From: Sulfurospirillum arcachonense DSM 9755 | GTDB lineage: Bacteria; Campylobacterota; Campylobacteria; Campylobacterales; Sulfurospirillaceae | Assembly (NCBI RefSeq): GCF_000597725.1 | Contig: NZ_JFBL01000002.1 | Location: forward strand, 186,001-250,000 | Direction of reading: 5' to 3' | DNA: 64,000 nucleotides | Shown: in pieces, positions 24,113 to 37,468 of the stretch | How positions within the stretch are numbered: position 1 is the first letter of the stretch | How the letters are laid out: the number at the start of each line of letters is the position of its first letter | Notes under the pieces: model-generated | The model's input: only the letters and a program-made list of their open reading frames with translations | What the model was told of the DNA's origin: nothing | The model's database searches: none | Program-made: the position numbers and the translations under genes

Positions 24113-24277
24113 GTGTTAGACTTACTTGTAGGAAGATTGGTTTTACATGTAAAGGTATTTTGGGTTAAAAATAAATACTTGACAAATCATGGTACAAAGT
24201 GTTCTATTATTTGCTATTTTTTGATTAAAAAATCACTTTTTATGTGAGTTAATTGTTAAATTTAGAGCTATTTGTGT

Positions 24278-24283
24278 TATAAT
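24278..24283 (+). promoter_or_regulatory. Extended -10 promoter ahead of the cassette region
   Basis: TGT-TATAAT at 24275-24283 lies 17 bases before the first hairpin repeat of the island. It would drive the lipoprotein gene at 24387. A second candidate -35 TTGACA is at 24179-24184. Confidence 0.4.
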
Positions 24284-24299
24284 ATGCATTGAATAAATA

Positions 24300-24336
24300 G
24301 TTGTACGTTCCCGCTTTGCGGCAACGTACAACGGCG
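24300..24336 (+). repeat. Hairpin direct repeat, copy 1
   Basis: Arms GTTGTACGTT (24300-24309) and AACGTACAAC (24323-24332) enclose CCGC-TTT-GCGG with one C-C mismatch, followed by GGCG. It matches copy 2 (25197-25233) at all but one of 37 positions and is far richer in GC than its surroundings. Confidence 0.9.
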
Positions 24337-24367
24337 TTCAGCTCTGAGTGCACTATCGAAGTTAGAA
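24326..24367 (+). other. Weak attC-like site before the lipoprotein cassette
   Basis: GTACAAC (24326-24332) and GTTAGAA (24361-24367) could be R'' and R' core sites, with the lipoprotein ATG 19 bases after R'. The interior pairs poorly and 42 bases is short for an attC, so it may instead be a remnant or the left junction. Confidence 0.3.
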
Positions 24368-24386
24368 TAATGGAAAAGGAGATCGT

Positions 24387-25121
24387 ATGAAAAACTTAAT
24401 AAGAACTGCTGTAGCTATTGGTATTTCTACAGCATTGGCAGGATGCGGGCATTTTACGTTTCAAGGGATAAAGTATCGAACAGGAGGCGCTCATTCATCT
24501 AGCATCGGATCGGTCGGCCTAGTTAGAACAGAGTTGAATAATGTATATGAGCCACAATTCACCCCGAAGTGGAGGTCAATTGAAATAGGGAAGGTGGCGG
24601 AATACACGGAAACAAAATTCAGTGAATTCAAAATAGTTGGTGAGGCCGAGATCAGCGATTCTAACAATACAAGCGCCGGAGTATCAGGATCCAAAACAGA
24701 AAGCGGCGTTAGATATATATTTGAGTTGAAAGATAAGGATGGACTTCTTAATCAGATTAATAACAATGAAGATCTCGCAATGAAATTGAAAAGTGACAAA
24801 AACTGGAGGATTGTCACTAGCTCCGTAAGCATATACTCACATAGGTTGTCTAAGAGGATTGCAGCTAATGCCTCTGCGAAATGGACAATGGATGGAACAG
24901 GGGGTAGCGGTATAAATATCAAAGCAGAAGGATCATCCGGAAGCACCTTGGAGCTAAAAATCTCAGATGGCACAATAGTTGGGTATCAGTATTCAAGGGT
25001 ATGCTGGGGTATTAATAGCGGAAAGGCTGAACTCCTTATCGTAGATAGGCTTGGGCCGGATGTTTCATGCCTTGACGGCATGACGCACGATCCTGAAAAA
25101 ATAAATAACGCTAACAATTAG
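24387..25121 (+). CDS. Cassette-borne predicted lipoprotein, unknown function
   Basis: 244 residues with a lipoprotein signal (MKNLIRTAVAIGISTALAGC, lipobox LAGC, Cys20) so probably anchored to the cell envelope facing the periplasm. The rest is polar and rich in Ser/Gly, with IKAEGSSGSTLELKISDG in the C-terminal half and a Cys pair near residues 203 and 226 (RVCWGIN, DVSCLDG). I do not recognise the family. AAAAGGAGATCGT gives a strong ribosome site. Codon use includes CGG, GCG and GGC codons that are rare in neighbours, so it was probably acquired from a higher-GC donor. It sits between two copies of a 37-bp hairpin repeat and ends in an attC-like site. Confidence 0.8.
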   Translation: MKNLIRTAVAIGISTALAGCGHFTFQGIKYRTGGAHSSSIGSVGLVRTELNNVYEPQFTPKWRSIEIGKVAEYTETKFSEFKIVGEAEISDSNNTSAGVSGSKTESGVRYIFELKDKDGLLNQINNNEDLAMKLKSDKNWRIVTSSVSIYSHRLSKRIAANASAKWTMDGTGGSGINIKAEGSSGSTLELKISDGTIVGYQYSRVCWGINSGKAELLIVDRLGPDVSCLDGMTHDPEKINNANN

Positions 25122-25203
25122 TTCCAGCGGACCCCAAATTCCGCGGGGCATGTTTGCGCGAACGCCTCGCTACGTTTGGGGCCTCTGAACAAGGGCGTTG
25201 TAC
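25109..25203 (+). other. attC-like recombination site of the lipoprotein cassette
   Basis: R''-like CGCTAAC (25109-25115) and R'-like GTTGTAC (25197-25203) flank an imperfect stem: left GTTCCAGCGGACCCCAAA pairs with right TTTGGGGCCTCTGAAC, leaving single unpaired bases on one side, the hallmark of attC. The core sites deviate from consensus at one position each. The lipoprotein stop codon falls just inside it, as is usual for cassettes. Confidence 0.6.
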
Positions 25204-25233
25204 GTTCCCGCTTTGCGGAAACGTACAACGGCG
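25197..25233 (+). repeat. Hairpin direct repeat, copy 2
   Basis: Arms GTTGTACGTT (25197-25206) and AACGTACAAC (25220-25229), inner CCGC-TTT-GCGG, then GGCG. One base differs from copy 1. Its first seven bases double as the R' core of the attC-like site. Confidence 0.9.
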
Positions 25234-25261
25234 CGGCTGAGCACTGAACGTGCCCATCTCT

Positions 25262-25302
25262 GCCATCTGTTGTGCTCCGCTTCGCTACGCACAACAAATG
25301 GC
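25262..25302 (+). repeat. Third long hairpin ahead of the restriction gene
   Basis: GCCAT-C-TGTTGTGC (25262-25275) pairs with GCACAACA-A-ATGGC (25289-25302) around a 13-base loop: 13 pairs with one C/A mismatch. It ends 32 bases before the restriction gene start and may be a folded leader or a relic of a recombination site. Confidence 0.75.
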
Positions 25303-25334
25303 AAGAACACACACCAAGATAATAAAGGAATTAT

Positions 25335-26012
25335 TTGAAGAAAAAATTAACAGATTATAATTTAAACGAAAGAACAGCACTGGCATGTGAATTAATTCAG
25401 GAACAAATAGTTGATCAGAGAGTTCAATTACATAGATGGCGAGAATTAACTTTTCAACCAGCTCAAATTGACACAGGGTACATTGGTCAACATCTTGTTT
25501 CCCTTATTAGTGGAATAGTGGGTGGAGGATTCCGAGGTAAAGGTGATGACTTAGAAGATGGGTCAGAAGTGAAAAGTGCAAATTTTTTAGATTCTGAAGA
25601 TGCAAAGGGAGCTGTTGCTCCTAGATGGAATTTTCAATGTAATGATGAAGAGGGGATGGAAAGCTTTTTATCATACCCATCTATTTTTCTTGTTTCTGTT
25701 GATCTTTCTCCTGAAAACAATCAAAGGTTTCGTATTTGGAAAGTTAATCCGAGAGAACACCAAAACCTAAATGAAAGATATCATGAATGGATGGATGTTT
25801 TGGGTCGTCCAAAGCTTCAAAGTCCTGATAGACCGGGAGTTAACTTTCAGCTTTTTCCTCCTAGAAACAAATCAAATGACACATATGCTAGGCATGGGAA
25901 TGGCCGATCAAATGGCTTTACCAAGATACAAATAGAATTAGATGATATACAGGGATCAAATAAAATATTTCATGCTGAAGTAATTAATAATGATGTTATT
26001 CTTATAAAATAA
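25335..26012 (+). CDS. Type II restriction endonuclease, MamI-like
   Basis: 225-residue protein resembling the MamI restriction endonuclease family (recalled target GATNNNNATC). A PD-(D/E)xK-type nuclease core is visible as GDDLEDGSEVKSA (residues 70-82): acidic Asp71/72, then Glu78-x-Lys80. The N-terminal helix RVQLHRWRELTFQPAQIDTGYI precedes it. The start is TTG, five bases after AAAGGA. It is followed by its presumed partner methylase after a 58-bp gap holding a 42-bp palindrome. The family name rests on remembered motif similarity; the restriction role is supported by context. Confidence 0.7.
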   Translation: MKKKLTDYNLNERTALACELIQEQIVDQRVQLHRWRELTFQPAQIDTGYIGQHLVSLISGIVGGGFRGKGDDLEDGSEVKSANFLDSEDAKGAVAPRWNFQCNDEEGMESFLSYPSIFLVSVDLSPENNQRFRIWKVNPREHQNLNERYHEWMDVLGRPKLQSPDRPGVNFQLFPPRNKSNDTYARHGNGRSNGFTKIQIELDDIQGSNKIFHAEVINNDVILIK

Positions 26013-26017
26013 CTTTA

Positions 26018-26046
26018 TTGACTTCGTTCTATTTTTAGATTATAAT
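26018..26046 (+). promoter_or_regulatory. Consensus promoter of the DNA methylase gene
   Basis: TTGACT (26018-26023), exactly 17 bases, TATAAT (26041-26046). The start ATG at 26071 follows AAGGA. The -10 box lies at the centre of the 42-bp palindrome. Confidence 0.85.
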
Positions 26047-26063
26047 CTAAAAATAGAACGAAG
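26022..26063. promoter_or_regulatory. 42-bp perfect palindrome over the methylase promoter
   Basis: Bases 26022-26042 (CTTCGTTCTA...TTAGATTA) are the exact reverse complement of 26043-26063 (TAATCTAA...TAGAACGAAG), with no loop. It spans from the -35 box to just before the ribosome site. It fits a dimer-binding operator, plausibly for autoregulation of the restriction-modification system. Transcripts reading through from the restriction gene would form a 21-bp hairpin here. Confidence 0.85.
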
Positions 26064-26070
26064 GAATAAG

Positions 26071-28047
26071 ATGAGTGAAATTAAAAATACATATGAGACG
26101 TTATATACAGCTTTTTCAGAATTGCGAGAACATTTACATTTATCGGGTAGAATAGATGACTCTAATGCTAAATTAGATGAAGTTTCCAAGATTCTTGCAA
26201 TTTGTATTGCAACTAATAATAATTGGATTAAATCAAAAGATTTTGAACAATTAGTGAAATCTACGGGTTCAAACATTAATGCTATTGACATATTACACCT
26301 AACCTTTGAAGAATGTACTAAAGATGAGCACTTTTTAAATTCAGATAAAACTTCTATTTTTGGTGCTTCTCCTAAATTAAATATACAAAAAGGCGAGAAT
26401 GAGTTTGCATTAATTCTTGCACGAACAATCTATACTACATTTATAAATGCTTTAAATCATGCAAAGTCAAACAATTCATTTGACTTAGTGAATGAAGCTT
26501 TTGGACATTTTATTAGAGATAATTTTAGAGGTAATATAGAAGATGCACAATATATGACTCCTCCAGAGGTGGTTGACTTTATTTGTGATTGGGCTCTTTC
26601 CGAAATACCAAAAAGTTTTTATCAAACTAATGAATTTTTAGTAATGGATCCTTCTTGTGGGGTTGGCAGCTTTTTAGCATCTTTTTATCGTAAAGCAACT
26701 CTTCTTGCACCAAGCAATAAAATAAAATTAATTGGTCAAGATAAAGTCGATCGAATGGTTCGACTATCGAAAATAAACATGATGCTATTTGGTAATGAAA
26801 TATATGATATTGATCAAGGTAATTCACTTATAAACTGTAGTAGATTAGAAGCGTATAATGGTAAAGTAGATTTAATTATAACTAATCCTCCTTTTGGTGC
26901 AAATATCTCAACTGAAAATATTAATTCTCAATTAAAAGAAAATTACCCACTATTCTATGGATTAGAAACATCTACTAAATCTATTGATTCTGAACTTGCT
27001 TTTATTGATAGAGAATTATCATTACTAAAAAATGGTGGAAAACTGTTTGTAGTTGTTCCAGACTCAACAGTTTCATCAAGAGGACTAGCTGAAACACTCC
27101 GTGCACGATTGATTGGTAAAGCTAAATTAAAAGGCATTATTGAATTGCCAGCTGTGACATTTGCACAAGCTGGAACAAGAACTAAAACATCAATTGTTTA
27201 TTTAGAAAAAGGAAGAGAGAATACAAAAGAACATAATATTGTGATGGGTACAATTAATGATCTTGGTTTTCAAGTTGCACTAAGAAAAGGGGTGTCAATA
27301 AAAAAATATGAAGGGATAAACCAGCTTGATATTTTAGGAAAAAAACTTTTTGAATCTGAAAAAAACATAGGAATTATTTCTGAAACACCTTCATGTACTC
27401 TAGAATTATCTTCCATTGTCGAAAGTGGATCTTGGACGGCAAGCCATTATAGTTCACGTAGAATAAAAGCACTTAAAACAATAGAATCTTTTAAAAACTA
27501 TATTATTAAAGATCTGAAAGATATTGTTACTTTTGAAACAAAGAATAGACGCAGATTAAAAGAAGAAGATAACAGCAAATGTATAAGTGTTTTACATATA
27601 ATTGGTGATGGCATAATTGATTTTGAAGAACTACAAAAATATGAACCTAAAACTAAAGGGAATGTTTGTTATCCTATGGATATATTAATATCAAAAATAA
27701 ACCCTAGAATCCCAAGAATTATTGTTGTTCCGCAACTTGACTTTCCTACAACTTGTTCAAGTGAATTCGAGATTGTCAGAGCTAAAGAAGGTATAGATCC
27801 TTATTGGGTATGTTATATGTTACTTGAACCACTGATTCAAGATCAAATTCAAAGCTTGACATCCGGTACATCATCATCTCATAATCGAATCAAAACAAAT
27901 GAATTAGAAATAGTAAAATTACCAGTTCCAAATTCTGAAAAAGAAATTTTAAATACTAATAAAATAATCAATATTTACAAAGATTCAATTGAAAATATTG
28001 TTTCTTCATCTCTCACTATAGATGGCTTGCGTAAAAAAACTGTATAA
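26071..28047 (+). CDS. N6-adenine DNA methylase with fused HsdS-like specificity domain
   Basis: 658 residues. N-terminal helical domain like HsdM (1-150), SAM-binding motif I DPSCGVGSF (193-201), catalytic motif IV NPPF (272-275), then from about residue 450 a target-recognition half resembling one HsdS repeat (WTASHYSSRRIK; FPTTCSSEFEIVRA; conserved-helix-like end). The M+S fusion suits a bipartite, interrupted recognition site such as that of MamI. It would protect host sites from the upstream nuclease. It has its own consensus promoter inside a palindrome. Its stop codon lies inside the R'' box of an attC-like site. Confidence 0.85.
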   Translation: MSEIKNTYETLYTAFSELREHLHLSGRIDDSNAKLDEVSKILAICIATNNNWIKSKDFEQLVKSTGSNINAIDILHLTFEECTKDEHFLNSDKTSIFGASPKLNIQKGENEFALILARTIYTTFINALNHAKSNNSFDLVNEAFGHFIRDNFRGNIEDAQYMTPPEVVDFICDWALSEIPKSFYQTNEFLVMDPSCGVGSFLASFYRKATLLAPSNKIKLIGQDKVDRMVRLSKINMMLFGNEIYDIDQGNSLINCSRLEAYNGKVDLIITNPPFGANISTENINSQLKENYPLFYGLETSTKSIDSELAFIDRELSLLKNGGKLFVVVPDSTVSSRGLAETLRARLIGKAKLKGIIELPAVTFAQAGTRTKTSIVYLEKGRENTKEHNIVMGTINDLGFQVALRKGVSIKKYEGINQLDILGKKLFESEKNIGIISETPSCTLELSSIVESGSWTASHYSSRRIKALKTIESFKNYIIKDLKDIVTFETKNRRRLKEEDNSKCISVLHIIGDGIIDFEELQKYEPKTKGNVCYPMDILISKINPRIPRIIVVPQLDFPTTCSSEFEIVRAKEGIDPYWVCYMLLEPLIQDQIQSLTSGTSSSHNRIKTNELEIVKLPVPNSEKEILNTNKIINIYKDSIENIVSSSLTIDGLRKKTV

Positions 28048-28096
28048 CAAAACCTCGAACCGAACAGCAAGCTGTCGGTTGAGTCGAACGTTATAT
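28042..28096 (+). other. attC-like recombination site after the methylase
   Basis: R'' GTATAAC (28042-28048) is complementary to R' GTTATAT (28090-28096) at six of seven bases. Between them ACCGAaCAGC pairs with GCTGTCGGT around a two-base loop, with an unpaired A in the left arm. At 55 bp it has the size and asymmetry of a compact attC. The methylase stop codon is inside R''. Confidence 0.65.
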
Positions 28097-28106
28097 CGAG
28101 GATAAA

Positions 28107-28787
28107 ATGAAAGATATAAATATACAAGAACATTTCGCAAAACAGGCTTCTGATTATGAAGCATTGATGACTAGATTGGTTCCACAATATTTAGAACAAC
28201 ATAAAATCATATCTGATTTATTACCAAGCGATAAAAGTAAAAACTATAGAGTATTGGATTTAGGTTGTGGTAATGGTATATTGTCTGAGATTGTTTTAAA
28301 AAAACTTCCAAATTCACATATCACTGGATTTGATATTACTACTGAAATGCTAGATGCTTATGAGCAAAAAATATCAAAATATACAAAAAACTATAAATTG
28401 ATCCAAGGGGATTATAAAATAGATTCAATTGGAGAGTCATACGATATTATCTTAACAGGTATGACACTACATCATCTAAATTGGGAAGAAAGAAAAGTTT
28501 TTTATCAAAAACTTTTTAATAGTGCAAATCAAAATGCAGTTTATATCTCAAATGATATTATCATAGATGAAGATACTCATGTAAAAGAACATCAATATTT
28601 ACTTTGGAAACAGTTTATGAAAGAGCAAGGTGAAGACCCAGAGTTTTGGTATGAAAAACATATTGAAAAAGATTTTCCAATTGTTTTATCAAATCATTTT
28701 GATTGGTTAAAAGAAGTTGGATTTCAACAAAGTGCTTGTTATTGGAGAATGTATAATTTTGCAATAACAAGCACAATTAAAGTTTAA
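28107..28787 (+). CDS. Class I SAM-dependent methyltransferase
   Basis: 226-residue cytosolic methyltransferase. SAM motif I VLDLGCGNG lies near residue 49, then FDITTEMLDAYE (acidic end of strand 2) and the post-I block DIILTGMTLHHL. The substrate cannot be told from sequence. The ATG is 11 bases after the R' core of the attC-like site with GAGGA between, a spacing typical for the first gene of a cassette. No attC-like site is visible after its stop, so it may equally be the resident gene at the right edge of the island. Base use is like the host. Confidence 0.85.
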   Translation: MKDINIQEHFAKQASDYEALMTRLVPQYLEQHKIISDLLPSDKSKNYRVLDLGCGNGILSEIVLKKLPNSHITGFDITTEMLDAYEQKISKYTKNYKLIQGDYKIDSIGESYDIILTGMTLHHLNWEERKVFYQKLFNSANQNAVYISNDIIIDEDTHVKEHQYLLWKQFMKEQGEDPEFWYEKHIEKDFPIVLSNHFDWLKEVGFQQSACYWRMYNFAITSTIKV

Positions 28788-37362: not shown

Positions 37363-37468
37363 TATTTGTAACCTAACTATTTATTCAACGTATATTGTAT
37401 ATCTATGAACCTGATAGTAACATTATGAGGAGATAAAATATGTCGTTATAGTACTTTACATGTAAACC

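Follow-up and report, generated by a model that had tools for sequence, protein, structure and literature searches.

Probable integron cassettes on a separate attI copy in the chromosome of Sulfurospirillum arcachonense

Gene content and boundaries of the array

The window (the whole 64-kb stretch of DNA analysed) is part of contig C2 (263 kb) of a draft genome of 2.66 Mb in 42 contigs. It contains, in this order, an attI site, a cassette A, a cassette B ending in a first attC site (attC a), a cassette C ending in a second one (attC b) and a probable cassette D. The first-pass annotation had proposed two attC-like sites (25109–25203 and 28042–28096), spaced by about 2.8 kb, in an integrase-less cassette region of a campylobacterial chromosome (24300–28096); setting, spacing and both positions are correct, the latter being matched above chance by a covariance model (see below). 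The region itself was rightly located but incomplete, its true start being the attI (24249–24303) and its probable end lying at about 28787.

The attI region (24175–24300, forward strand) shares two homologous segments with its counterpart on contig C8 (blastn: 77.6% identity over 107 nt, 92% over 63 nt); similarity to the intergenic region between intI and attI on contig C13 is weaker (70% identity across 108 nt, up to G24300). Throughout the phylum, the sequence between intI and the first cassette terminates in TATAATGTTCRTTGAATAAATAG^TTR, some 245–260 nt from the intI start. A sequence-only model built from 29 intI-adjacent attI sites of other genomes (R3) matches 55 nt of the window array (24249–24303, forward strand; 36.7 bits, E 3.6e-10), and the end of this match coincides with the G^TT crossover (G24300/T24301) at which cassettes start. 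A TATAAT hexamer inside attI (24278–24283, forward strand), preceded by TGT as in −10 elements of the extended type, is a candidate for the −10 box of the cassette promoter Pc; this block is conserved in the attI alignment (A3), about 20 nt before the junction. We also considered that the motif might be a mere common promoter, and rejected this because comparable sites are missing from 38 control genomes (presumably Campylobacter and Helicobacter), in which R3 has no match below E 0.0029.

Cassette A (24301–24361, forward strand) is a short remnant of a gene-less cassette that is repeated in the genome; it starts with TTGTAC, has GTACAAC as R'' and is 97% identical to 25197–25233 over 37 nt. 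Cassette B (24362–25197, forward strand) starts at G^TTAGAA, ends at attC a and carries a lipoprotein-like coding sequence of 244 aa with the lipobox LAGC (24387–25121, forward strand), the product of which has no match in Pfam, NCBIfam or PADLOC. With a GC content of 0.44 (vs. 0.31 for the window), this lipoprotein cassette looks imported.

Cassette C (25198–28090, forward strand; 2.9 kb) opens with the first 121 nt of the gene-less cassette (25198–25318, forward strand), followed by genes for a MamI-like restriction endonuclease of 225 aa (25335–26012, forward strand; PF09567, E 5.2e-54; PADLOC REase_II, E 2e-21) and an N6-adenine DNA methyltransferase of 658 aa (26071–28047, forward strand; PF02384, E 2.5e-30). 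Alignment with the copies on contigs C9, C20, C22 and C25 reveals that the 3' half of the gene-less cassette (L' and R' of its long attC) is missing here, and cassette C is thus a composite, in which a truncated gene-less cassette is fused to restriction-modification genes. The first-pass annotation had not recognised the hairpin at 25198–25318 as such a piece; we also considered it as a free-standing attC belonging to the restriction-modification cassette, and abandoned this because the alignment with full copies shows the truncation. The gene pair resembles MamI-type type II restriction-modification systems in combining a RE_MamI endonuclease (Pfam) with an N6-adenine methyltransferase, but differs from them in forming a large integron cassette with such a fusion. 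Between the two genes, a perfect 42-bp palindrome (26022–26063), with GATTATAATC at its centre, contains the sequence that best matches a promoter in this region (TTGACT-17-TATAAT). This centre, which overlaps the −10 box, fits GATNNNNATC, the recognition sequence of MamI, and autoregulation of the methyltransferase via the predicted MamI-type site is possible. The window holds 19 such sites for 17.4 expected, and thus gives no sign of their avoidance. Searches with tblastn found no match to the endonuclease or the lipoprotein in plasmids and no relative of any of the four window proteins among the loci retrieved.

The full gene-less cassette is about 180 nt long and consists almost wholly of one long attC-like structure. 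Its hairpin has seven copies in the genome, while copies of the cassette lie at L017 1–165 and 1002–1190, L018 2614–2810, L020 7922–8110 and the end of L169. Because the draft assembly breaks into contigs at these copies, the order of the arrays elsewhere in the genome is uncertain. Contigs C13 and C23 each end in an attI with the first bases of the gene-less cassette immediately behind it.

Beyond attC b, a class I SAM methyltransferase gene (28107–28787, forward strand), which had been left outside the region first described, starts 17 nt past the crossover and probably belongs to the array as cassette D (28091–28787, forward strand). No attC was detected after it, and it has no full-length DNA match in five genomes of the same genus, where better matches start only beyond the gene. 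The downstream flank shows no synteny with the same-genus genomes compared (n = 5), and no syntenic empty site was found among the relatives compared; in the nearest one (L148), a different gene follows the upstream neighbour. An Rfam search of the region returned nothing relevant.

attC sites and cassette ends

A loose pattern scan for pairs of R'' and R' boxes was dropped, as it returned far too many false matches in AT-rich sequence, and covariance models were used instead. The first one (R1) was built from 22 attC sites of other Campylobacterota genomes (alignment A1), the consensus fold of which has 22 pairs, 13 of them covarying (changes on both sides). It recovers attC b (28042–28096, reverse strand; 47.8 bits, E 1.4e-8), a site of the Campylobacterota type with its crossover at G28090/T28091, and misses attC a. 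For this reason, a second model (R2) was built from the arm pairs of nine attC sites, eight gammaproteobacterial and one from a Campylobacterales MAG (L030). Scanned over the 64-kb window up to E = 10, R2 yields exactly two matches, both on the bottom strand, which correspond to attC b (39.9 bits, E 7.6e-9) and, at 25110–25203, to attC a (25109–25203, reverse strand; gammaproteobacterial type; 22.2 bits, E 0.0013). With the filters off, attC a appears under R2 as a low-scoring fragment only, and support for this site is moderate. The arm sequences of attC a, AACAATTAGTTCCAGCGGAC and GGCCTCTGAACAAGG, are similar to AACAAATAGCTCCAGCGGAC and GCCGCTGAGCAAGG in L088 (457–572) and L090 (8736–8831). 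Both sites display R'' and R' boxes, an imperfect stem with unpaired bases and a folded bottom strand, with weaker support for attC a.

The agreement between the 5' end of a cassette and its own R'' box, which the first-pass annotation had put forward as an independent consistency test, proved to be a sound one: in a set of 27 cassettes, taken from this genome and from others, the mean match at the four variable positions is 3.7, vs. 2.2 when partners are shuffled, and none of 20,000 shuffles did as well. Within the window, cassette A matches at all four positions, the lipoprotein cassette (B) at two and the restriction-modification cassette (C; 5' GTTGTAC vs. R'' GTATAAC) at three, so that the partial match claimed for the latter two was fairly worded.

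One intact integrase gene and many attI copies

No remnant of intI was found within the window by tblastn with the genome's own IntI, in line with the absence initially reported, and a LysE gene, not intI, lies directly upstream of the attI. The genome as a whole is nevertheless not integrase-less: contig C13 encodes a full-length IntI (TIGR02249, 415 bits for a cut-off of 265), the gene of which adjoins recA, and the protein aligns over its full length with the solved structure of IntI4 (2a3v; E 1.5e-79), an alignment that covers the conserved stretch around HIFRHS and IYTH. Two further copies of intI are damaged or partial, one on contig C23, frameshifted and truncated beside an attI, and another on contig C22, where its first part, as assembled, accompanies an attI. 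Other arrays with attC sites lie on contigs C9, C20, C22 and C25 and at C2:60624. One cassette (GTTAGTCTACAAAAAACACAC...) occurs twice, directly behind attI on contig C8 and behind a gene-less cassette on contig C25, with both joins at G^TT.

At E ≤ 2e-4, R3 identifies eight attI sites in this genome, namely on contigs C8, C13 (with intI), C22, C23 and C25, at C2:39501, at the head of the window array and at a second position in the window (37374–37422, reverse strand; E 7.9e-7); most of them are without an intact intI, and the cassettes behind them differ from site to site. Weaker candidates occur at C2:59390 and C22:7101, and a truncated attI lies at the end of contig C23. Behind the second site of the window, a 132-aa open reading frame (MDINYEEYLITDD...), GNAT-like by eye, starts at G^TT, and no attC was detected there.

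Dispersed attI copies extend well beyond this genome. At least one site (E ≤ 0.01) is present in 31 of the 44 genomes of the family, and sites at E ≤ 0.001 occur in 87 of 397 Campylobacterota genomes, 47 of which have two or more and three of which have eight, while IntI scores above its cut-off in only 34 of the 397. The genomes with attI copies and no IntI above the cut-off include complete ones, and the copies are often followed by attC-ended cassettes; this is the case in G123, G247, G342, G116 and G332, among others, where attI precedes an open reading frame and a strong attC (e.g., E 1.3e-14 in L174, 1e-15 in L192 and 2.8e-14 in L198). Such attI copies without intI may be relics out of use. 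In some dispersed attI of relatives (L188, L189, L190, L191, L193 in G342, L177, L196 and L153), GTG, GTA, GCT or GAT replaces GTT at the crossover while the TATAAT block is intact, as though the cassettes had been frozen in place.

Origin of the array and relation to known integrons

In our opinion, the locus very probably consists of genuine integron cassettes standing on their own copy of attI, without an integrase gene of their own. An integron integrase would have brought the cassettes into attI, recombining the folded bottom strand of a cassette attC at G^TT either with attI itself or with the attC of the preceding cassette, and the intact IntI of contig C13 is the likely source of this activity, acting in trans. 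The conserved TATAAT of attI would then drive the first cassettes. As for the dispersed attI sites, the half-decayed unit on contig C23 suggests that they most likely derive from duplicated intI–attI units that lost intI. It is conceivable, if somewhat short of probable, that Campylobacterota possess a distributed integron, in which one integrase, permanently present or acquired at times, serves many chromosomal attI docking sites, each with a built-in promoter; under this reading, many cassettes would be first in line and expressed at once, in contrast to a single array in which only one place is privileged.

A different route for the attI copies, which we judge rather unlikely, would be their spread as small units, i.e., the stretch between intI and attI with its promoter and without intI, instead of duplication of whole integrons and subsequent loss of intI. 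It would account for most attI copies showing no trace of intI coding sequence, for the homology on contig C8 and at the end of contig C23 beginning near the expected intI start, and for the several attI copies in many genomes devoid of IntI above the cut-off. However, the damaged intI on contig C23 and the partial one on contig C22, both still accompanying their attI, speak against it, the left ends differ between copies, and we saw neither a mechanism nor a target-site signature for the movement of attI alone.

Still less plausible is that the locus is an ordinary CALIN, with cassettes inserted by IntI into non-classical sites (attG-type sites or a promoter) that resemble attI through convergence or coincidence. 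Insertion into attG sites is reported as established (Loot et al. 2024, as cited in PMC11023631 and PMC12444791), and multi-locus CALINs are described for Xanthomonas (PMC12444791). Yet an attI match of 55 nt at such an E value and an identity with other attI copies that reaches 92% well before the crossover would not be expected of attG, and the control genomes have no comparable sites. Finally, that the array is a product of chance hairpins without any integron biology is next to impossible: the loose scan does show many weak AAC...GTT hairpins in AT-rich genomes, but independent models return just the two reported attC sites, the genome has attI, an intact IntI and further arrays, and the matches of R1, R2 and R3 refute this reading.

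In the sense of IntegronFinder (PMC9024848), a CALIN is a group of attC sites with no integron integrase, and the window locus agrees with the working form of this definition, having at least two attC (as called by R1 and R2) within 4 kb and no similarity to intI in the window; cassettes of either could presumably be mobilised in trans. To this extent, the CALIN label of the first-pass annotation stands. It falls short in that the array is headed by a recognisable attI with a promoter-like −10 box, and is therefore not a bare attC cluster, and in that an intact IntI exists elsewhere in the genome. Conversely, the locus shares with sedentary chromosomal integrons (intI–attI–array) an attI at the head of the array, attC sites, cassettes in one orientation and precise G^TT junctions, but it departs from them by the absence of intI and by belonging to a chromosome with many attI instead of one beside intI. 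The off-locus CALINs of Xanthomonas (PMC12444791) are similar in that their cassettes are grouped at several places on the chromosome at a distance from intI, whereas the portion of that article available to us makes no mention of attI copies at those loci.

Campylobacterota figure among the phyla listed as having integrons (PMC8618304), and Sulfurimonas and Sulfurovum are reported to contain CALIN and In0 elements (PMC10295459). More than one IntI is present in 22% of the genomes that have any (PMC9024848). Outside class 1 integrons, attI is poorly described and is not detected by IntegronFinder 2.0 (PMC9024848), which is why arrays without an integrase normally enter the record as attC clusters alone. 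In our literature search, with its partial coverage of subscription papers, we did not come across a chromosome described as having many attI copies, and the arrangement may be new. The conserved attI of Campylobacterota makes integrase-less arrays readable, many of them turning out to still carry attI, and it makes testable the question of whether one integrase serves many docking sites. A distributed integron, if real, would change the picture of one platform with one entry point. It would also offer a likely explanation for the many single cassettes close to a promoter that some genomes contain, a restriction-modification pair being among them here.

Two observations concern the other integron loci of this genome. 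Between intI and attI, inverted GGACAT...ATGTCC motifs are repeated (contigs C13, C22 and C25; L016 9740–9990), and these could be operators of some intI regulator. Behind the attI of contig C25, the cassette at L020 5879–7381 is possibly a defence cassette: besides a gene for a DUF3010 protein, it has one for a Ser/Thr protein kinase, the best PADLOC matches of which are mad6 and PD-T4-6 kinases.
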